From Candidatus Krumholzibacteriota bacterium (GTDB lineage Bacteria > Krumholzibacteriota > Krumholzibacteriia > JAJRXK01), in assembly GCA_029262065.1 (NCBI GenBank), contig JAJDAC010000021.1, forward strand, positions 1 to 64,000: DNA of 64,000 nt. Direction: 5' to 3'. Of the stretch, positions 53,331-64,000 are shown piece after piece (positions within the stretch are counted from its first letter, which is position 1; each line of letters opens with the position of its first letter). The notes under the pieces were generated by a model. That model made no database searches and had not been told where the DNA came from. It worked only from the letters and a program-made list of their open reading frames with translations. Position numbers and translations under genes: made by a program.

Positions 53331-53924
53331 TCAGATCTTCAGAACCGCTTTGCGCACCGTCTCGGCGATCACGCCCATATCGCGCCAGCCGCTACGATGC
53401 TCCAGGTACTCGGCGTTGATAGCCAGTTTCTGGGGCAGGATCTCCTCCACGTAGAAGCGCTCGGGATCTTCCACCGTTTGCAGCATGGCGCTCTCGTTGC
53501 GGAACTGGATACTCGCGGGGTCGGTAATTCCCGGTGGCACCAGAAGCACCGCTCGTTGCACTTCGTCGTACAAGCGAACGTATTCGGGCACCTCGGGCCG
53601 GGGGCCCACGAATTTCATGTCGCCGCGCAGCACGTTCCAGAGCTGGGGCAACTCATCGAGTTTGAACTTTCGCAGGGCGACTCCCACCCACGTCACGCGG
53701 GCGTCGGCGCCAATGGTCAGCGGTCCGCCGACTTCGCGGGCGTTACAGACCATCGTGCGAAATTTGATGATATTAAAGGACTTACCACCGCGACCCACTC
53801 GTTCCTGGCGGAAGAGTATGGGACCCGAAGACGTCAGCGCGATCGCGACGGCGCAAAGCAAGAGTACGGGTGATGCTACCGCCAAACCCGTGGCGGCAAA
53901 AAGCACCTCTCCCCACCGGTGCAT
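53331..53924 (-). CDS. PglC/WbaP-type initiating sugar-phosphate transferase
   Basis: 197 residues, a monotopic phosphoglycosyl transferase: a reentrant N-terminal helix with the Ser-Pro break at S18-P19, FRQERVGRGGKSFNIIKFRTM, the catalytic D90-E91 dyad in FKLDELPQLWNVLRGDM and FVGPRPEVPEY. It should transfer a sugar-1-phosphate from UDP-sugar to undecaprenyl phosphate to start the repeat unit. Size is that of PglC-type short forms, not the long WbaP. Strong AAGGAGG ribosome-binding site six bases before ATG 53924. Confidence 0.94.
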   Translation of the reverse strand: MHRWGEVLFAATGLAVASPVLLLCAVAIALTSSGPILFRQERVGRGGKSFNIIKFRTMVCNAREVGGPLTIGADARVTWVGVALRKFKLDELPQLWNVLRGDMKFVGPRPEVPEYVRLYDEVQRAVLLVPPGITDPASIQFRNESAMLQTVEDPERFYVEEILPQKLAINAEYLEHRSGWRDMGVIAETVRKAVLKI

Positions 53925-54007
53925 CCTGGACCTCCTTGTCCGCGGCGCGTGGGAGCGACACACCGACATGACTGCTCGCGACTGCAAGCAAGTCCTCGGC
54001 CGAAGTG

Positions 54008-55210
54008 TTACTGCCTCGCTACCTTCGTTGCGCGCTTCCTTGCACGCTCGAGAGCCGCGGGAATCGCGTCGATTACCCGTTTCATCTGGTTGTCGGTCAT
54101 CGCGGGGAAGATCGGCAGACTCACTTCGGCTTCGAAGCACCGAAGTGCCACCGGGAAGTCTTCCGGTTGCAGCCCGTACCGATCGCGGTAGTACGGCTGC
54201 AGATGCAGGGGAATGAAATGCACGCTGGTGGAAACACCGGCTTCCGAGAGCTCCTCTATGAAGGCATCGCGGACCTGCCTTCCTCCATCGACCCGTAGGG
54301 GATACAGGTGCCAGGAGTGCAGATCGCCGGTGGCGGCGTCGACGGGCAGGGTAACGCCGTCGAGCGCCGAGAGACCGTCGTTGTACGTGCGGGCAATGCG
54401 GGCGCGCGCGTCACGGAATTTGTCCAGTCGCCGCAATTGGCTGAGCCCCAGCGCGGCCGCGATGTCACCGAGGTTGTACTTGAACCCAGGCGCCACCACT
54501 TCGTAGTACCACGAAGGCGCGCTGTCCCGGTAGCGGTCGAATACGTCCTTGCTGATGCCGTGCAGTCGCATCGTCCGCATTCGCTTGGCCAGCTCCTTGT
54601 CGGCGGTAACGGCCATTCCGCCCTCGCCGGTGCACAGTGTCTTGGTGGCGTAGAAGCTGAATACGGATATGTCGCCCCATTGACCCACGGGCTTGCCATC
54701 TACCCGCGTCGGCAGAGCGTGGGCCGCGTCGTCAACGATGCGAAGGCCAAACTCCCGGCCCAGTTCCTCAAAGCCGGCCATATCGCACGCCAGGCCGGCG
54801 TAGTGCACGGGCATGACGGCTTTCACTGAGCCGCGTTGCTCGGACGTCATGGTCTTGAGCGCGGCGCGCACATCCGAGGGTTGCAGGTTGAACGTAGCCT
54901 CGTCGACATCCACGAATACCGGGTCAGCGCCGAGGTAACGAATGACCTCGGCGGTGGCTGTGAACGTGTAGGGGGTGGTAAGAACCCGATCGCCTGGACC
55001 CAGGCCGATGGCCTCCAGGGCCAGGTGGAGGCCCGCGGTGGCCGAGTTGACGGCCACGCACTCGAGCTGGCCGCCTAGCGCCCGGCCGAACTCGGTTTCG
55101 AACTCGCGGCATTTCGGGCCGGTGGTCACCCAGCCTCCGCGCACGACCTCCACGACGCCCGGAATGTCTTCCTCGTCGACCGAAGGTACATGAAATGGAA
55201 TGGGTTCCAT
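54008..55210 (-). CDS. DegT/DnrJ/EryC1-family sugar aminotransferase
   Basis: 400 residues, a PLP-dependent sugar aminotransferase. The PLP-lysine is K190 in SFYATKTLCTGEGG, the PLP-phosphate/ring Asp is near VDDAAHALP (residues 159-167), and EATFNLQPSDV and VMPVHYAGLACDM fit the family. With the dehydratase at 55439 it probably makes a 4-amino-4,6-dideoxy sugar (PglE-like), the substrate of the PglC-type enzyme. Start ATG 55210; a TTGACA promoter lies about 45 bases upstream. First gene of a three-gene minus-strand operon. Confidence 0.94.
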   Translation of the reverse strand: MEPIPFHVPSVDEEDIPGVVEVVRGGWVTTGPKCREFETEFGRALGGQLECVAVNSATAGLHLALEAIGLGPGDRVLTTPYTFTATAEVIRYLGADPVFVDVDEATFNLQPSDVRAALKTMTSEQRGSVKAVMPVHYAGLACDMAGFEELGREFGLRIVDDAAHALPTRVDGKPVGQWGDISVFSFYATKTLCTGEGGMAVTADKELAKRMRTMRLHGISKDVFDRYRDSAPSWYYEVVAPGFKYNLGDIAAALGLSQLRRLDKFRDARARIARTYNDGLSALDGVTLPVDAATGDLHSWHLYPLRVDGGRQVRDAFIEELSEAGVSTSVHFIPLHLQPYYRDRYGLQPEDFPVALRCFEAEVSLPIFPAMTDNQMKRVIDAIPAALERARKRATKVARQ

Positions 55211-55254
55211 GATTCTCCTGGCCCGGAACTGGTGCGTGGGGAGGGCCTAGGCGG

Positions 55255-55283
55255 ACGCTATCCCCGCCTTGCCTCGCTGTCAA
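55255..55283 (-). promoter_or_regulatory. Putative promoter of the DegT-PglC-GT2 operon
   Basis: On the minus strand a perfect TTGACA (55283-55278) is followed after 17 bases by TAGCGT (55260-55255), about 45 bases before the ATG at 55210. One of the better hand-read promoters in the window. Confidence 0.5.
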
Positions 55284-55307
55284 CTCGTGTCCCAAGCCTC
55301 AAGCCCG

Positions 55308-55321
55308 CGGCCGATCGGCCG
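55308..55321. promoter_or_regulatory. 14-bp perfect palindrome upstream of the dehydratase gene
   Basis: CGGCCGATCGGCCG is its own reverse complement. It lies between the divergent DegT aminotransferase promoter and the dehydratase gene. It may be an operator, but chance occurrence in GC-rich DNA is possible. Confidence 0.25.
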
Positions 55322-55438
55322 ATAGAAGCAAGGCTGATGAGAACGATTGCGCCCGCGTGGTCGTGTTCTTGCTTTGTGCACGGACGCGGTCACGTGTCGA
55401 GGCTCCCAACTCATCCTGACCTGGGAGGAACGAGGCAC

Positions 55439-57367
55439 ATGTCAGTGCCCACCGCGATGCTTCGCGCCCGAAGCGTCTGCCTTTTGACCGCCCAATCTGC
55501 CTTGGTGGCCGTGTCTCTGGCCAGCGCCTTCGCGCTGCACGAGGGCACGTTGGGCTCGCGATATTTCTGGGCGGGCTTGCCCATCGTACTCTCCGTGAAA
55601 CTGGCCATGGCCGCGCTCGCGGGCTTGCATCGTGGCATCTGGCGCTACGCCGGAATCCGCGACCTGATGGCCACCGCGCGCTGGACCGGCGCTTCCAGTC
55701 TTCTACTGGTGATCATGGTCCTGGCCGCCGGCCTGCCACTGGGCCTTCTGGCCGTGGCCGTCATCGACGGCCTGCTATCTTTCGTGTTGTTCGTAACCGC
55801 CCGCGTTGCCCCTCGGGTGCTGCGCGAGTTCGCGCCCAGTGCCGCGGACGTGCGCAGTCTCGTGGTGGTCGGAGCCGGCGACGCCGGCGAAGCGGTGGTG
55901 CGTGAGCTCGTGGCTCGCAGCGCCGGCTACGTTCCCGTGGCCTTCGTCGACGACGACCCGCGCAAGCGGGGCATGTCGATCCACGGTGTCCCGGTGCAGG
56001 GCCGCACTTCAGACCTGGCCGCCATCGTCGAACGGCACGACGCCGACGCCGTGCTCGTGGCCATGTGCGGCGTGGGGGCGCAGCGCAAACGAGAGATCCT
56101 GGAAATTGCCCGCGCCACGGGGCGGCCGGTGAAACGGATTCCCAGTCGGGACGAAATGCTGGGTTCGGGCGCCGCCATTGGCGACCTGCGCGACCTGACC
56201 CTCGAAGATCTTTTACCGCGGCGCCCGGTCCGCACCGATCGGGAGCCGGTGACCGGACTTCTGACCGGACGAACCGTCCTGGTCACGGGTGCCGCGGGTT
56301 CCATTGGTAGCGAGCTGGCGCGGCAGGTGGTGGCGCATCGGCCGGCGCGACTGCTCATGCTCGACTCGAACGAAAACGCTCTGTTCGAACTGGAGCACGA
56401 AATGCGGGCGCGAAGCGCCGGCGTGCACTGCGTCCCGCTGCTGTGTTCGGTGCAGGACAAGGACCGACTCGACCGCATCTTTCGCCAGTACCGACCCGAG
56501 GTGGTCTTCCACGCGGCCGCTTACAAACACGTGCCGGTGCTGGAACACTTCCCGGAAGAGGCCGTGCGCAACAACGTGAAGGGGACGCGGTGCGTGGCCG
56601 AGTTGGCGCACGCCTACGGCGCCGATCGCTTCGTGCTGATCTCGACCGACAAGGCCGTGCGACCCACCAGCGTCATGGGTACCACCAAGCGCGTGGCCGA
56701 GATGGTGGTGCGCGAGATCGATCGCCGCAGCGACACGCGTTTTCGGGTCATCCGGTTCGGCAATGTGTTGGGCAGCAATGGTAGCGTGCTACAGCTCTTC
56801 CGGCGTCAGATCGCCGAGGGTGGACCGGTCACGGTTACGCACCCGGAGATCCGGCGCTTCTTCATGAGCATTCCCGAGGCGGTCGAGTTGGTGCTGTTCG
56901 CGGCCGCGCTCGAAGGCGAGGGTCGCACGTTCATTCTGGACATGGGCAAACAGGTGCGCATCTACGACCTGGCTCGACACTTCATTCGCATGTGTGGGCT
57001 CGAGCCCGAACGCGACATCCCGATTGAGTTCGTGGGGTTGAGGCCGGGCGAAAAGCTCTATGAAGAGCTTTGGACCGAAGCGGAAGTACCCGTGGCCACC
57101 GAACATCCCTCGATCCTCTGCGCACCGCTGGCCGACGACGAGCTGTTGGGCTTGCCGCAGCGGGTTCAATCGCTGATCGATTGGGCCGAGGAAGGCAATC
57201 GCGAGCAACTGGTGGCGCACCTGCGCGCGTTGGTTCCCGACTACAACGGAACCCCCGTGGGAATGGAACCTCCGCCGGTGAACGGATCGGCGATCGAAGC
57301 CGTGGCGCATCTGGTGGCGAGGGAGCGCGACCTGGCCGAAAACGAGCCTTCGTTGGCGACCGCCTAG
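55439..57367 (+). CDS. Membrane nucleotide-sugar 4,6-dehydratase (PglF/WbpM/CapD type)
   Basis: 642 residues. Four N-terminal helices (about 5-115), then a Rossmann domain (LVVVGAGDAGEAVVREL, about residues 139-155) and the catalytic SDR domain starting VLVTGAAGSIGSE at 281. The catalytic region has HAAAYKHVPVLE (K363) and LISTDKAVRPTSVMGTTKR, as in UDP-GlcNAc C6 dehydratases PglF and WbpM. Should give a 4-keto-6-deoxy sugar for the DegT enzyme. ATG 55439, preceded by GGGAGGAACGAGG. The stop codon lies within a hairpin. Confidence 0.93.
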   Translation: MSVPTAMLRARSVCLLTAQSALVAVSLASAFALHEGTLGSRYFWAGLPIVLSVKLAMAALAGLHRGIWRYAGIRDLMATARWTGASSLLLVIMVLAAGLPLGLLAVAVIDGLLSFVLFVTARVAPRVLREFAPSAADVRSLVVVGAGDAGEAVVRELVARSAGYVPVAFVDDDPRKRGMSIHGVPVQGRTSDLAAIVERHDADAVLVAMCGVGAQRKREILEIARATGRPVKRIPSRDEMLGSGAAIGDLRDLTLEDLLPRRPVRTDREPVTGLLTGRTVLVTGAAGSIGSELARQVVAHRPARLLMLDSNENALFELEHEMRARSAGVHCVPLLCSVQDKDRLDRIFRQYRPEVVFHAAAYKHVPVLEHFPEEAVRNNVKGTRCVAELAHAYGADRFVLISTDKAVRPTSVMGTTKRVAEMVVREIDRRSDTRFRVIRFGNVLGSNGSVLQLFRRQIAEGGPVTVTHPEIRRFFMSIPEAVELVLFAAALEGEGRTFILDMGKQVRIYDLARHFIRMCGLEPERDIPIEFVGLRPGEKLYEELWTEAEVPVATEHPSILCAPLADDELLGLPQRVQSLIDWAEEGNREQLVAHLRALVPDYNGTPVGMEPPPVNGSAIEAVAHLVARERDLAENEPSLATA

Positions 57368-57479: not shown

Positions 57480-58796
57480 TCAGCTGTCGTAGTACTCCGT
57501 GCCCAGGTGGGTAATGAGATCCTCACCCATCCAGTGTCGCAGCGTGTTCTTCAGCTTGGTCTGCTGGATGAACAGATCGTGCTCGGGGTACAGCTCCTTG
57601 GCAACCTGCGGGCTCTTGAAGTAGAAGCTGAGCCATTCCTGGATGCCACGCTGGTCGGCGCGGCTGGCCAGGTCCATGAACAGCGCCAGGTCGAGCACGA
57701 TGGGCGCGGCCAAAATGCTGTCACGGCACAGGAAGTCGACCTTGATCTGCATCTGGTAACCCATCCATCCGAAGATGTCGATGTTGTCCCATCCCTCTTT
57801 GTTGTCACCGCGCGGGGGATAGTAATTGATGCGAACCTTGTGATAGAGGTCCTTGTACAGGTCGGGATACTGATCGGCCTGAAGGATCGATTCGAGCACG
57901 CTGAGCTTGCTGACTTCCTTGGCCTTGAAGCTGGCCGGGTCGTCGAGCACCTCGCCGTCACGGTTGCCCAGGATGTTGGTGCTGAACCAACCATTCATGC
58001 CGAGCAGACGTGCCTTGAAGCCGGGCGCCAGAATGGTCTTCATGAGCGTCTGACCGGTCTTGAAGTCCTTGCCACACACGGGCACGCGGTTCTCCATGGC
58101 CAGTTCCAGAATCGCCGGCGCATCGACCGTCAGGTTGGGCGCACCGTTGGCGTAGGGGATGCCCATCTTCAGGGCGGCGTACGCGTAGATCTGACTGGGG
58201 GCGATGCTCTCGTTGTTGTTCTTCAGTCCTTCTTCGAATGCGCGCAGCGTCTGGTGAACCTCGCTGGGCACTTCGTAGGCCTCGGTGCTACCGCACCACA
58301 CCATGACCAGGCGATCGCACTTGTTCTTCTCTTTGAAATTCTTGATGTCGTCCATCAGCTGCTCGGCCAAAGCCATCTTGGTGGCGCCCGTCTTCACGTG
58401 GGTGCCCTCGAGCTTCTTCACGAACTTGGGGTCGAACACGGCGGTCATGGGTTGGATGGCCGACAGTTCGTCCTTGATGGGAAGCAGGTCGCGCTCTTCC
58501 AACACACCGGCGGTCATCGCCGCATCGAAGGCATTTTCGGGAATGGGATCCCAGCCACCGAAGACCAGGTCTTCCATGCCGGCCAGGGGAACGAATTCCT
58601 TGATGAGCGGATTACGGTTGTCGGTACGCTTGCCCAGACGGATATGACCCATCTGGGTGAGTGAGCCAATAGGCTTCGTGTGGCCCTTGCGGGCGCCCAA
58701 TACACCAGCGTAAAGCGTAGTGGCCACAGCTCCCATTCCCGGCGTAAGCACGCCGAGACGGCCTTGGGCAGGACGGATTTTCATTTTGTCGCTCAC
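57480..58796 (-). CDS. myo-Inositol-1-phosphate synthase
   Basis: 438 residues. It converts glucose-6-phosphate to inositol-1-phosphate with bound NAD. Family marks are VLTPGMGAVATTLYAGVL (NAD-binding start), VMVWCGSTEAYE, YAYAALKMGIPYANGAPN, KDFKTGQTLMKTILAP with the active-site Lys-rich segment, NGWFSTNILGNRDGEVLDDP and KVRINYYPPRGDNKEGWDN. It is like the bacterial (Bacteroides/actinobacterial) type in size. A LysR-type gene diverges from its promoter, suggesting regulation of inositol synthesis. An IMPase-family gene is at 13950. Confidence 0.95.
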   Translation of the reverse strand: MSDKMKIRPAQGRLGVLTPGMGAVATTLYAGVLGARKGHTKPIGSLTQMGHIRLGKRTDNRNPLIKEFVPLAGMEDLVFGGWDPIPENAFDAAMTAGVLEERDLLPIKDELSAIQPMTAVFDPKFVKKLEGTHVKTGATKMALAEQLMDDIKNFKEKNKCDRLVMVWCGSTEAYEVPSEVHQTLRAFEEGLKNNNESIAPSQIYAYAALKMGIPYANGAPNLTVDAPAILELAMENRVPVCGKDFKTGQTLMKTILAPGFKARLLGMNGWFSTNILGNRDGEVLDDPASFKAKEVSKLSVLESILQADQYPDLYKDLYHKVRINYYPPRGDNKEGWDNIDIFGWMGYQMQIKVDFLCRDSILAAPIVLDLALFMDLASRADQRGIQEWLSFYFKSPQVAKELYPEHDLFIQQTKLKNTLRHWMGEDLITHLGTEYYDS

Positions 58797-59893: not shown

Positions 59894-60820
59894 GTGAGAC
59901 GTTGGGTTGGCATTCTGACTTTGCTGGTGCTGGTAACGGCGCCTGCCAAAGCATTGGCCGAAGCATTGGCCGAAGAACCCACCGTCCGTGTGCCGTCGCT
60001 GGGCAGCACGCTCACGCCGCCGCCGGAGCCGGTGAATCTCTGGCGTCGCGGCGGAATGGTAGCCTCGTACGCGGGTCTCTACGCCGGGGCCACGAAGGTG
60101 GGCAGCCGTTTCGGCCTGGAGTCTCGCTTCAAGATCGTTCGTCTCGAGTCGGCGTACGCCTACGACCTCGTGGCTCACGTCTTCAATGTACGCGAGATCG
60201 CGAATCTCATGACGTCGGTAGGACGGCTGGGTGGGGTCAGTGAATCCCGTGCACGCACGCTGGGGGCGTGGGTGGGAGGATTCGGTTCCCTGACCTACAT
60301 GGAAGTGATCAATGGGTTCATGCCCGGTGTGCGCTTCGACCCGTTGGACCCATTCGCCAACGCGTTGGGAGCCTGGTTGGCTACGGGGGGGCGCGATCTG
60401 GCCGCCCGTCATCCGCACCTTCAACGGTTCTCGCTTCAATTCGGATTCAAGTCGTGGAGCCGGGCGTTTGGACCCGCGCAGTCCAATGGCTTTCTGGGAA
60501 ACTTCTGGCACGACTACCCCAATGGTCGTTTTGGCGTGGGCTATCGCGTCGGCTCCATGGAACGGCCGGTGTTGGACCTGATGGCGACCTACGAAATAAC
60601 CAGTTGGGACCTGCCCGAGCTGCGCAACCGTTTCGGCTTCGGCGTCGAGTTGCAGCCGGTGGCCTGGGTGACTCCGTGGCTGAATCTGGCTCCCGGAGGG
60701 CGGCATCTGGTTGCGCTGTTCGAGTGGTTCAACGACCGCCTGTTGGTCCCCGGGTTGTTCATCGAATTGTTCTCGTTCGACGTGGCGCCATTCAGCGATC
60801 GTGATCCTTTCCTCGAGTAG
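59894..60820 (+). CDS. Exported protein of unknown function (DUF2279/YfiM-like)
   Basis: 308 residues from a GTG start with GGAGA ahead. The signal peptide ends in a 12-base tandem repeat (59951-59974) that makes ALAEALAEEP. The mature part shows WRRGGMVASYAGLYAG, a Phe/Tyr-rich core (LESAYAYDLVAHVFNVREIAN), PFANALGAWLAT, and a pattern of alternating strands in the C-terminal half (GRFGVGYRVGSMERPV, RFGFGVELQPVAWVTP), which suggests an outer-membrane-associated protein. A DUF2279-like relation is an impression only. Confidence 0.68.
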   Translation: MRRWVGILTLLVLVTAPAKALAEALAEEPTVRVPSLGSTLTPPPEPVNLWRRGGMVASYAGLYAGATKVGSRFGLESRFKIVRLESAYAYDLVAHVFNVREIANLMTSVGRLGGVSESRARTLGAWVGGFGSLTYMEVINGFMPGVRFDPLDPFANALGAWLATGGRDLAARHPHLQRFSLQFGFKSWSRAFGPAQSNGFLGNFWHDYPNGRFGVGYRVGSMERPVLDLMATYEITSWDLPELRNRFGFGVELQPVAWVTPWLNLAPGGRHLVALFEWFNDRLLVPGLFIELFSFDVAPFSDRDPFLE

Positions 60821-60873: not shown

Positions 60874-61338
60874 ATGCTACCTATTCCCGCCACAATCCTG
60901 ATGCACGACGTCGGTTGGGCCAGCCTCATCAGCCTGCTGGTGGCGCAGTTCGTCAAGCCGTTCATTGCCGTGGCCAGTGGACATTCGTTCCGCGTGGGTC
61001 GGATGTTCTACACCGGCGGCATGCCCAGTAGCCATACGTCCCTCGTGACCACCCTGACCCTCAGCATCTGGGGGATCGAGGGGTCGGACAGTATCCTGTT
61101 CAGCATGTCCCTCATCTTCGCGCTGTATTTCGTGTTCGAGGCGACGGGGCTGCGACAGGAGGTGGGCCATCAGGCGCGCGTTCTGAACGAAATGCTGGAC
61201 GAGCTCACCAAGACCCAGAAGGTGGATCGCGGTCGACTGCGCGAGCTGGTGGGGCACACCTGGTCCGAGGTGCTGGGTGGCGTCGTCGTGGGCGTGATGG
61301 TGTTTTGGGCCTACCAACACCTCTGGCTGGGTCGCTAA
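60874..61338 (+). CDS. Divergent PAP2-family membrane protein
   Basis: 154 residues of the YuiD/divergent-PAP2 family (PF02681 type). The family core is FYTGGMPSSHTSLVTTLT, containing the P-S-S-H of acid-phosphatase-like members, then FEATGLRQEVGHQARVLNEM and VLGGVVVGVMVF near the end. About four helices. Members are assumed to handle a phosphorylated lipid or sugar, but no activity is established. No ribosome-binding site; possibly leaderless. Confidence 0.86.
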   Translation: MLPIPATILMHDVGWASLISLLVAQFVKPFIAVASGHSFRVGRMFYTGGMPSSHTSLVTTLTLSIWGIEGSDSILFSMSLIFALYFVFEATGLRQEVGHQARVLNEMLDELTKTQKVDRGRLRELVGHTWSEVLGGVVVGVMVFWAYQHLWLGR

Positions 61339-61407: not shown

Positions 61408-62499
61408 ATGCGGATACTTTCCGTGGCCAACCAGAAGGGCGGTTGTGGCAAGACCACGGTCGCCGTCAATCTGGCGTCGGCGTTGGCGCGTCGCGGGCGT
61501 CGTGTACTGGTCGTCGACAACGACCCCCAGGGCCACGCTTCGATGGCGTTGGGCGTGGGGTCCAAGGACTTTTCGCTGTCGACTCGCGACTTCTATCTCA
61601 CCAGTGACATCTATGTGGAAGACGCCCGGATCGAGGTTGGACCTCGTCTGCATGTCGTCCCGTCCGATATCGACCTGAGTTCGGTGGAAGCGGCGTTGCA
61701 GCACGAGCCGCGCAAGCTGCAGCGGCTATCCGAACGTCTCGCGGTGTCGGAAACTCCCTACGATGTGGTGTTGATCGACAATCCGCCCAACGTCGGCGTA
61801 CTCACGTTCAATGCATTGATGGCCAGCCGCGAGGTCGTGGTTCCGGTTGATCCCGGTAAGTTCAGTCTCGATGCCGTGGGCCGGTTGCGGGAAACATTGG
61901 ACCTGCTGACCCTCGAACGCGGCCATCGTGTGACGTTGCAGTTGGTGGCCAGCGGTTTCGACCTGCGAACGCGCTACGCGCGCGAAATCCTGGCCGCGTT
62001 GGACGAGCTGTACCCGGGGGATCGCCTTCGTACCCTGATTCATCACACGGTGCGACTGCGCGAGGCGGCCGCGGCCGGCCGTGCCATCGACGATTTCGAC
62101 GAGGGTTCGCGGGGAGCCGTTGATTTCGCGGCCCTGGCCGAAGAACTCGATGGGCGTGGTGCCGATATCGGTGACGTTGACGCTTCAACCTGGTCGCGGT
62201 TGCTAAGCGGAGGGCGGGCCCGTGGGCCGGGCGTCGAGTTCATCGCGGAATTTCCCCGCGCGAAGCGCGTGGCAATTACCGGCGACTTCACCGGCTGGTC
62301 GGTCGAAGGCGAGCCCATGGAGTTGATTTCCGATGGCCGCTGGCGTCTGGAGGTTCCCGTGCCGGCGGGTTGCTACGAGTACAAGTACATCGTCGACGGC
62401 GTCTGGAAAGTGGATCCCGAGAACCCCGAGCGCGTTCGCAATAGCTACGGACAACTCAATTCCATCATCGTGGTTCCCGCCGCGGATGACGCGTCGTGA
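61408..62499 (+). CDS. ParA-type ATPase fused to a glycogen-binding (AMPK/CBM48) domain
   Basis: 363 residues. The N-terminal ParA/MinD domain (1-260) has the deviant Walker A NQKGGCGKTTVAVNLA (K10-T17), VLVVDNDPQGHAS and DVVLIDNPPNVGVLTFN. A linker with a Ser/Trp-containing end joins a C-terminal AMPK1_CBM-like domain (about 277-360): VAITGDFTGWSVEGE (W297), YEYKYIVDGVW (K326 and W333), and RNSYGQLNSIIVV (N351). These match the starch/glycogen-contact residues of AMPK-beta in identity and approximate spacing. Predicted: a carbohydrate-tethered positioning ATPase. Co-translated with the next gene (GTGA overlap). Confidence 0.88.
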   Translation: MRILSVANQKGGCGKTTVAVNLASALARRGRRVLVVDNDPQGHASMALGVGSKDFSLSTRDFYLTSDIYVEDARIEVGPRLHVVPSDIDLSSVEAALQHEPRKLQRLSERLAVSETPYDVVLIDNPPNVGVLTFNALMASREVVVPVDPGKFSLDAVGRLRETLDLLTLERGHRVTLQLVASGFDLRTRYAREILAALDELYPGDRLRTLIHHTVRLREAAAAGRAIDDFDEGSRGAVDFAALAEELDGRGADIGDVDASTWSRLLSGGRARGPGVEFIAEFPRAKRVAITGDFTGWSVEGEPMELISDGRWRLEVPVPAGCYEYKYIVDGVWKVDPENPERVRNSYGQLNSIIVVPAADDAS

Positions 62500-63050
62500 A
62501 TTGGTCGGCGCGTGACCGCCGGTTGAACGATGTCGCGCGGGCTTACCTGAGGCGACCGTCAACGGCGCCGGTTTCCATGGTTGTCGCCAGTTGGGATGCC
62601 AAAGTCGGGGAACACGCCCTGCGTGCGTTGGCGTGCGCTGCGCAAGAACTCCAGGTGGTGTTGGCGTCGCGCTCGCGCCCGAGTTCGGCGGCCGATGTCC
62701 TGGTCTCGGCGGTACTTGGTTTCGAAGAAAGCGACGTGTCACGATTGGGCTCGCGGCCGGCCAACTCGCTGGCGGATGGATTGGTCTGGGCGATCGATCA
62801 GGGGCTGTCCCGCGGCCAGCTCTACGCCATGTCGGTCCTGGGCTTTCGATTGGGGGTGCGTCGCGTCATCGTGCTGAGCCCCGATGTGGCCTCCGCCCAA
62901 TCCATGAATGCTGGGCTGAGCCTCACCGGGAACGCCCGCCGGATCGAGAACGTGGCCTGGAGTCCGGGCGACGGATCCGCCGCGAACGCCTGTATGGTCC
63001 GGGTGTTGCAGAGCTTTCTGGCCCATCGAGCGCCGACATCGTTCCGCTGA
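62496..63050 (+). CDS. Hypothetical protein coupled to the ParA-CBM gene
   Basis: 184 residues beginning with GTG in GTGA overlap with the upstream stop. No signal peptide or membrane helix. The sequence alternates hydrophobic strands with Ala/Arg-rich helices (SMVVASWDAKVGEHALRALA, VLASRSRPSSAADVLVSAV, GLVWAIDQGLSRGQLYAM, RRVIVLSPDVASAQSMNAG) as in a Rossmann-like alpha/beta protein, but no motif is recognised. Likely a partner of the ParA-CBM protein. Confidence 0.75.
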   Translation: MNWSARDRRLNDVARAYLRRPSTAPVSMVVASWDAKVGEHALRALACAAQELQVVLASRSRPSSAADVLVSAVLGFEESDVSRLGSRPANSLADGLVWAIDQGLSRGQLYAMSVLGFRLGVRRVIVLSPDVASAQSMNAGLSLTGNARRIENVAWSPGDGSAANACMVRVLQSFLAHRAPTSFR

Positions 63051-63628: not shown

Positions 63629-63700
63629 GGTTCCTGAGATAGACGGGGTTGCAGCCACCGTGCTATTCGTCACCACGCTTCTCTTGTGCACGGAGAGATC

Positions 63701-64000
63701 GTGTCCTACGTACAACGAATCGCGACGGCCTCCTTTCTGGGGGCAGTCTTTACTGCTCCTTGGGTAGGCCTGGGTACGACGGAAGTTGTTCTCGGTCGTC
63801 GATTGGGCATGGGGCTGCAGCCCGCACTGTTGTTGGGGCTGCTTTCGTTCGCCGCCGCGGCGTGGGTCAGGCGCAGCCACCGACCGCCTTGGCCGGTGAC
63901 GGCGGCGCTGGTTTGGACCACGGCCAGCGCGGCCTCTGTCGCGGCCGTCGATCACATGGGGTTGATCGGCGAAGTCCCTTGGTTGAAATCGGCCAAGCAG
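63701..64000 (+). CDS. Multi-pass membrane protein, 5' part
   Basis: 100 codons open to the right edge from GTG 63701, with GGAGAG upstream. The start (VSYVQRIATASFLGAVFTAP) leads into several hydrophobic segments. The pattern, including VVLGRRLGMGLQPALLLGLL, suits the N-terminus of O-antigen ligase/polymerase-type or similar membrane proteins, but the piece is too short to assign. Its frame has no stop up to the window edge. Confidence 0.62.
   Translation, partial: MSYVQRIATASFLGAVFTAPWVGLGTTEVVLGRRLGMGLQPALLLGLLSFAAAAWVRRSHRPPWPVTAALVWTTASAASVAAVDHMGLIGEVPWLKSAKQ

Follow-up and report, generated by a model that had tools for sequence, protein, structure and literature searches.

A ParA-type ATPase fused to a CBM48 domain recurs across bacterial phyla beside candidate partners with a ParB-like N-terminal peptide

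ATPases of the ParA/MinD family are responsible for placing DNA, carboxysomes, flagella and chemoreceptors in the cell; a large number of them are 'orphans', their partners being hard to recognise. Among the described systems closest to the protein analysed here is ParA–ParB, in which the LGRGLxAL peptide of ParB has an experimentally established role in activating ParA; in M. xanthus, ParB contacts ParA via L11, L15, L18 and I19, with R13 as the sole basic residue, and R238 of ParA is required for non-specific DNA binding (PMC12462528). In the carboxysome-positioning system McdA–McdB, the dedicated and highly variable partner McdB acts via a basic N-terminal peptide (PMC12204374). BcsQ–BcsR (cellulose secretion) and CpsD/Wzc (capsule) include ParA/MinD-fold ATPases that serve polysaccharide assembly. 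In AMPK-beta, LSF1 and SEX4, all of them eukaryotic, a CBM48 domain brings a protein without glucan-building activity to alpha-glucan.

In this study, we analysed a protein, ParA-CBM, that shares features with each of these systems and is encoded at 61408–62499 on the plus strand of a 64,000-nucleotide stretch of Candidatus Krumholzibacteriota DNA (the window). Like ParA/Soj, it has a deviant Walker A motif, a catalytic Asp, DNA-binding Arg/Lys residues and a hydrophobic pocket for a partner peptide, and the peptide of its putative partner can be placed in the register of ParB L11-R13-L15-L18 (PMC12462528). It differs from ParA/Soj–ParB in having a C-terminal CBM, a partner without the ParB fold and a canonical ParAB pair elsewhere in the genome. 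With McdA–McdB it shares the combination of a ParA-type ATPase and a dedicated, variable partner, but McdB binds a protein-compartment cargo, whereas in ParA-CBM the ATPase itself bears the predicted glycan-binding domain. BcsQ–BcsR and CpsD/Wzc have other partners and no such fused CBM, and ParA-CBM scores far under the BcsQ and eps_fam cut-offs; none of the eukaryotic CBM48 proteins is fused to a ParA ATPase. In the searchable literature, with most subscription papers outside its reach, we found no description of a ParA fused to a glycogen-binding domain.

A single frame of 363 codons, free of internal stops, runs from an ATG at 61408 to a TGA that ends at 62499, and its product has a two-domain architecture of ParA plus CBM48 (Pfam AAA_31 and AMPK1_CBM). 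A frameshift or assembly artefact was ruled out by the continuous frame and by the recurrence of the fusion in many genomes. Residues 1–250 (61408–62157) form the ParA/Soj ATPase domain, as judged from residue conservation and Foldseek matches, with AAA_31 covering residues 1–168 (E 4.7e-42). Residues 251–271 (62158–62220) are a low-confidence linker, and residues 272–363 (62221–62496) are the AMPK-beta/CBM48 domain, in which AMPK1_CBM covers residues 285–359 (E 4.9e-13, 49.5 bits versus a cut-off of 26.8) and CBM_48 is also above its cut-off. An AlphaFold2 model from an 80-row alignment (mean pLDDT 90.8) predicts a ParA fold that is joined by a poorly ordered linker (pLDDT below 50 at 254–267) to an all-beta C-terminal domain of the AMPK-CBM type. 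The closest folds to the whole protein were Soj/ParA structures (9a6n, 8ray and 2bek), with McdA and BcsQ lower in the Foldseek list, while the isolated C-terminal domain matched the AMPK-beta2 CBM 2f15 (E 3.9e-7) and also the plant glucan phosphatase-related LSF1 and SEX4. The sequence-only reading of this DNA had proposed a ParA/MinD-type ATPase with an intact deviant Walker A, continuing without a stop into a domain of AMPK-CBM fold that keeps the AMPK-beta glycogen contacts, and each of these points was borne out: the Walker A reads KGGCGKTT, and W297, K326, W333 and N351 align to the W/K/W/N positions of the 2f15 CBM, the known AMPK sugar contacts.

ParA-CBM is a variant among the ParA/MinD positioning systems whose profile scores fall under the cut-offs of the curated families. 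This holds for BcsQ (TIGR03371; 73 bits versus an equivalog cut-off of 157.85), MinD (TIGR01968; 38.6 versus an equivalog cut-off of 212.9) and the BY-kinase domain (TIGR01007; 34.1 versus a subfamily cut-off of 108.05), and the protein was also under the cut-offs of the curated ParA-partition equivalogs of NCBIfam.

The same domain order had been proposed as something to seek in other genomes, and a scan of GTDB representatives found at least 80 full-length relatives, with best-segment identities of 32–51% among the matches listed. Those matches came from Krumholzibacteriota, Latescibacterota, Omnitrophota, Planctomycetota, Desulfobacterota, Myxococcota, Rokubacteria, Acidobacteriota, Auribacterota and others. 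The fusion was also present in approximately 47 of the 58 nearest genomes; this recurrence, together with that in 80 or more further genome records, places the architecture far beyond chance. In a phylum-wide sample of 145 Omnitrophota genomes, 90 had matches at E <= 1e-58, mostly full length, and in Desulfobacterota there were matches in 10 of 148 genomes, CBM-less relatives among them. In an unrooted tree of ParA domains, whose non-fusion rows came from the window's class only and whose fusion rows were chosen as relatives of the window protein, one branch (SH-aLRT 98) separated 46 fusion proteins from 20 other ParAs, a pattern that fits a single origin of ParA-CBM.

Five CBM-less close relatives were found in Desulfobacterota (L137, L138, L139, L140 and L141), which have 44–48% identity to the fusion protein of L036 across the ATPase and differ in their C-terminal tails. 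Three records grouped by their ParA-CBM gene and its neighbours with a phylum other than that of their label: L089 (labelled a Methanomassiliicoccales archaeon) with Desulfobacterota, L029 (labelled Gemmatimonadales) with Krumholzibacteriota and L088 (labelled Planctomycetales) with Omnitrophota. Mislabelling or contamination of these MAGs is the probable cause.

The best indication of mechanism comes from a feature absent from the sequence-only reading, namely a neighbouring partner gene whose product begins with a ParB-like peptide. In 41 loci the next gene after parA-CBM opens with the peptide [basic]-x-[LI]-x-x-[IV]-[AS]-H-x-F-L, as determined by searching 8126 six-frame ORFs with a 15-residue HMM derived from candidates near parA; the count covers non-redundant loci at >=9.3 bits, five further duplicate loci being excluded. 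In all 41 the match opens the neighbouring co-directional ORF, and no other ORF of these loci scores as high; this adjacency is partly built in, since the motif seeds were picked near parA. The peptide has a basic residue (R, H or K) at position -2 in 40 of 44 sequences, L or I at 0 and I or V at +3, followed by A or S at +4, H at +5, F or Y at +7 and mostly L at +8. Because positions -2, 0 and +3 correspond to R13, L15 and L18 of M. xanthus ParB, the basic and the two hydrophobic positions lie in the ParB register. In addition, a G[RK]G core occurs in 11 of 46 partners, versus ~0.17 expected. A downstream partner of this kind is found in most non-Omnitrophota loci, and it combines a fast-evolving body with a recurrent N-terminal peptide. 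The opposite-strand neighbour of the CBM-less ParA of L137, a convergent gene, begins MLKKKPYGIDRVAHHFLS, which is the same motif, and this suggests that the peptide goes with the ParA domain and does not require the CBM. The partner would most likely switch ParA-CBM in a ParB-like manner.

In the window, the corresponding ORF (62496–63050, plus strand) encodes 184 residues from a GTG start that overlaps the parA stop by 4 nt, and its place matches that of the motif-bearing partner of relatives; it had no match in Pfam, NCBIfam or PHROGs. Its N-terminal peptide RRLNDVARAYL (62517–62549) is a candidate ParA-binding motif by its place and by the pattern [LW]xxVARxYL, which occupies the same position in the four genomes examined from its genome family f1 (three members besides the window's own). 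The motif HMM gives this peptide 0.4 bits and the ORF does not stand out within the window, and we regard it, with less confidence than elsewhere, as a diverged form of the partner motif. The proposed relation between ParA-CBM and its partner is thus well supported across phyla and weaker in the window. In several loci a further gene follows the partner: a conserved protein of ~220 residues (L035:7864-8538 and similar second downstream genes; no Pfam match in L035), whose cluster spans 12 loci, including ones from Desulfobacterota and Myxococcota.

In the window's lineage, parA-CBM and its partner gene lie within a Wzy-type exopolysaccharide cluster. Directly upstream, and conserved there in relatives, is a DUF212 divergent PAP2-family membrane protein (60874–61338, plus strand), preceded by an uncharacterised protein (59894–60820, plus strand) that is conserved in the same genome family (47–53% identity in G001 and G003). 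Downstream of the partner, a Wzy_C-type O-antigen ligase/polymerase (63686–64000, plus strand) starts a polysaccharide cluster; beyond the window edge it goes on with a GT, a WecA-type transferase and a methyltransferase, as seen in L104. Further upstream are a UDP-GlcNAc 4,6-dehydratase-like polysaccharide biosynthesis protein (55190–57367, plus strand; Polysacc_synt_2, E 3.4e-110), a DegT/PseC-like sugar aminotransferase identified by Pfam (54008–55210, minus strand) and a bacterial sugar (polyprenyl-phosphate) transferase (53331–54140, minus strand; Bac_transf, E 1.9e-53). A Myo-inositol-1-phosphate synthase-like gene (57480–58796, minus strand; NAD_binding_5, E 3.9e-97) adjoins these polysaccharide genes, and a 1739-aa secreted-type protein that has repeated D-rich motifs and ends in a sorting-like tail is encoded 3' of the downstream cluster, beyond the window (L104:9646-14865).

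Wzy_C, GT4 and WecA-type genes adjoin parA-CBM in the f1 and f5 genome families. Almost all of these genomes that have both Wzy_C and the fusion carry them on one contig, with Wzy_C a short way downstream (a contig end truncates the gene in G042). A chain-length-determinant-like gene, whose GNVR match is below the cut-off, lies between partner and Wzy_C in G001. Since the genus g33 (G040, G050 and G054) retains the Wzy_C-GT-WecA block without ParA-CBM, the module is an accessory of the cluster and not a core enzyme. In Planctomycetota and Desulfobacterota the neighbours of parA-CBM are not obviously polysaccharide genes.

The arrangement in Omnitrophota is a different one. Directly upstream of parA-CBM is a conserved gene for a protein of ~192 residues with the N-terminus [DE]IY[DE]HLAQVYLGK, one predicted transmembrane helix and then an outer beta domain, whose best fold matches in an AlphaFold2 model (pLDDT 83.5) are CBM11 structures (7e-8). 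There is no basic residue at position -2 of the N-terminal peptide, and for that reason we describe it as resembling the downstream partner motif and do not call the two homologous. The CBM11-like membrane protein at L083:5413-5997 and 23 relatives have nine invariant positions, three of which are tryptophans. Among 110 proteins scanned from the neighbourhoods of Omnitrophota parA-CBM genes were 19 Alginate_exp beta-barrels and eight GH57 enzymes.

We propose that ParA-CBM and its partner form a glucan-tethered module for positioning or regulation that would serve a polysaccharide assembly or envelope-glycan system, a proposal whose chances we judge to be evenly balanced. The module would be a dedicated second ParA system besides the canonical ParA. 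ATP-bound ParA-CBM dimers would associate with the nucleoid via the conserved basic residues, while the C-terminal CBM48 may tether the protein to an alpha-glucan or similar glycan. The ParB-like N-terminal peptide of the operon-encoded partner would then dock at the ParA dimer interface and promote ATP hydrolysis, and so the place or activity of the polysaccharide assembly or envelope-glycan apparatus would be coupled to a self-organising ParA cycle. The hypothetical cargo is most likely glycan-related. In the window's lineage, the apparatus would most likely be the adjacent Wzy-type exopolysaccharide system, and in Omnitrophota the membrane partner with its outer CBM11-like domain. A carbohydrate-linked positioning ATPase had been suggested from the window's sequence, with either glycogen granules or a polysaccharide machine as cargo. 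The latter is now the better supported, by the Wzy/GT/WecA cluster in the window's lineage and by the Alginate_exp porin, GH57 and CBM11-like membrane partner in Omnitrophota. Glycogen granules are the weaker candidate, as glgA was undetected in several fusion-bearing relatives, including one single-contig genome.

Residue conservation was followed over 93 distinct ParA-CBM sequences in both halves of the protein. In the ATPase, K10, K15, D37, D39 and D124 (the deviant Walker A KGGxGKT, including its lysines, and the catalytic Asp) are kept in all 93; R187 and R216 are likely non-specific DNA-binding residues, R187 being present in 92 and K or R at 216, the equivalent of R238 in M. xanthus ParA, in 85. 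Most of the residues that line the ParB pocket remain hydrophobic (129, 131, 134 and 166). In the CBM, F294, W297, Y325, W333 and D336 are invariant. Since ATPase, DNA-binding and CBM residues are all conserved in the family, both halves look active. E-set domains of the AMPK-CBM type can serve as protein modules, and one alternative is that the C-terminal domain has lost sugar binding and now recruits or senses the partner. Consistent with this, the family has R, K or Q at position 326 (80 of 93 carry K or R), and at position 351 either N (76 sequences) or D (17), so that the site is not strictly AMPK-like. However, the two invariant tryptophans W297 and W333 form the sugar platform and are retained in a domain where many other positions vary, and the motif-bearing neighbour of the CBM-less L137 suggests that the peptide is independent of the CBM; we consider loss of sugar binding unlikely.

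It is also rather unlikely, in our assessment, that ParA-CBM positions or partitions glycogen granules, with the CBM binding cytoplasmic granules and the ParA cycle spacing them or sharing them between daughter cells. The conserved AMPK-type glycogen contacts would suit such a role, as would the LSF1 and SEX4 matches, in which CBM48 brings non-glucan proteins to glucans. Alpha-glucans are still in play because glgB adjoins the gene of L089 and GH57 genes are nearby in eight Omnitrophota-type loci. Most neighbours of parA-CBM are not glycogen genes, however, and the distribution of glgA, which was above the TIGR02095 cut-off in 45 of the 58 relatives, does not closely follow that of the fusion. 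The gene was undetected in G012, G015 and G020, all of which retain ParA-CBM (G015 is a single contig with two copies and no recognisable glgA), and seven relatives have glgA with ParA-CBM undetected. When partial glgA copies were counted as present, 11 of the 58 lacked glgA, approximately 11 lacked the fusion and four lacked both, which is near the ~2 expected by chance. A tight link to glycogen synthesis was accordingly rejected for these relatives, and the granule idea is not favoured in the window's class because the fusion persists without recognisable glgA.

The proposed glucan-tethered module has a further competitor in a carbohydrate-sensing switch that is not a positioner, in which the CBM would sense a glucan or glycan and alter the state of the ATPase, and the partner, in many cases a degenerate ParA-like protein, would relay this to polysaccharide synthesis or transcription. 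AMPK and the BY-kinases are precedents for such a regulatory relay, and a Wzz/BY-kinase-like gene comes after the CBM-less L141. The partner bodies offer some support as well: in the set from other phyla one group is ParA-like with the P-loop degenerate or lost (hhalign probability 92, E 6e-7), HTH domains occur in two partners and RodZ_C in one. Of the 36 partners scanned against Pfam, seven matched CbiA (best 6.6e-10); other bodies had no known family, and when Krumholzibacteriota-type partners were compared with ParA by profile, the probability was 21. The conserved DNA-binding residues and the ParB-like peptide point instead to a spatial cycle of the ParA type, and we regard such a switch as improbable. 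Lastly, a ParA that partitions a chromosome or plasmid and whose fused domain is incidental is disfavoured as very improbable: the closest curated and structural matches are indeed ParA/Soj, but none of the 36 partners has a ParB-family Pfam match, the fusion is conserved across phyla, and another contig of the same genome encodes a canonical ParA next to a ParB-type protein (LGRGLSALL). In the window's genome and relatives, ParB-type proteins beside canonical ParAs (G000, G008, G015, G026 and G044) read LG[RK]G[LI]xAL, so that the window's organism has an ordinary partition system apart from ParA-CBM.

The tethered module proposed here may belong to an undescribed, phylum-spanning ParA class in which a carbohydrate polymer is part of the matrix or cargo; a glucan-binding ParA would be driven by partners with nothing in common but a ParB-like activating peptide, and in Omnitrophota membrane-spanning, outward-facing CBM11-like partners would link glycans inside and outside the cell, a broader reading that we put forward tentatively. 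If it is true, glycans or glycan-making machines would join the list of ParA/MinD cargoes, and a ParB-like peptide on otherwise unrelated bodies would be an easily searched signature of partners. ParA-CBM covers largely uncultured phyla in which cell organisation is almost unstudied.
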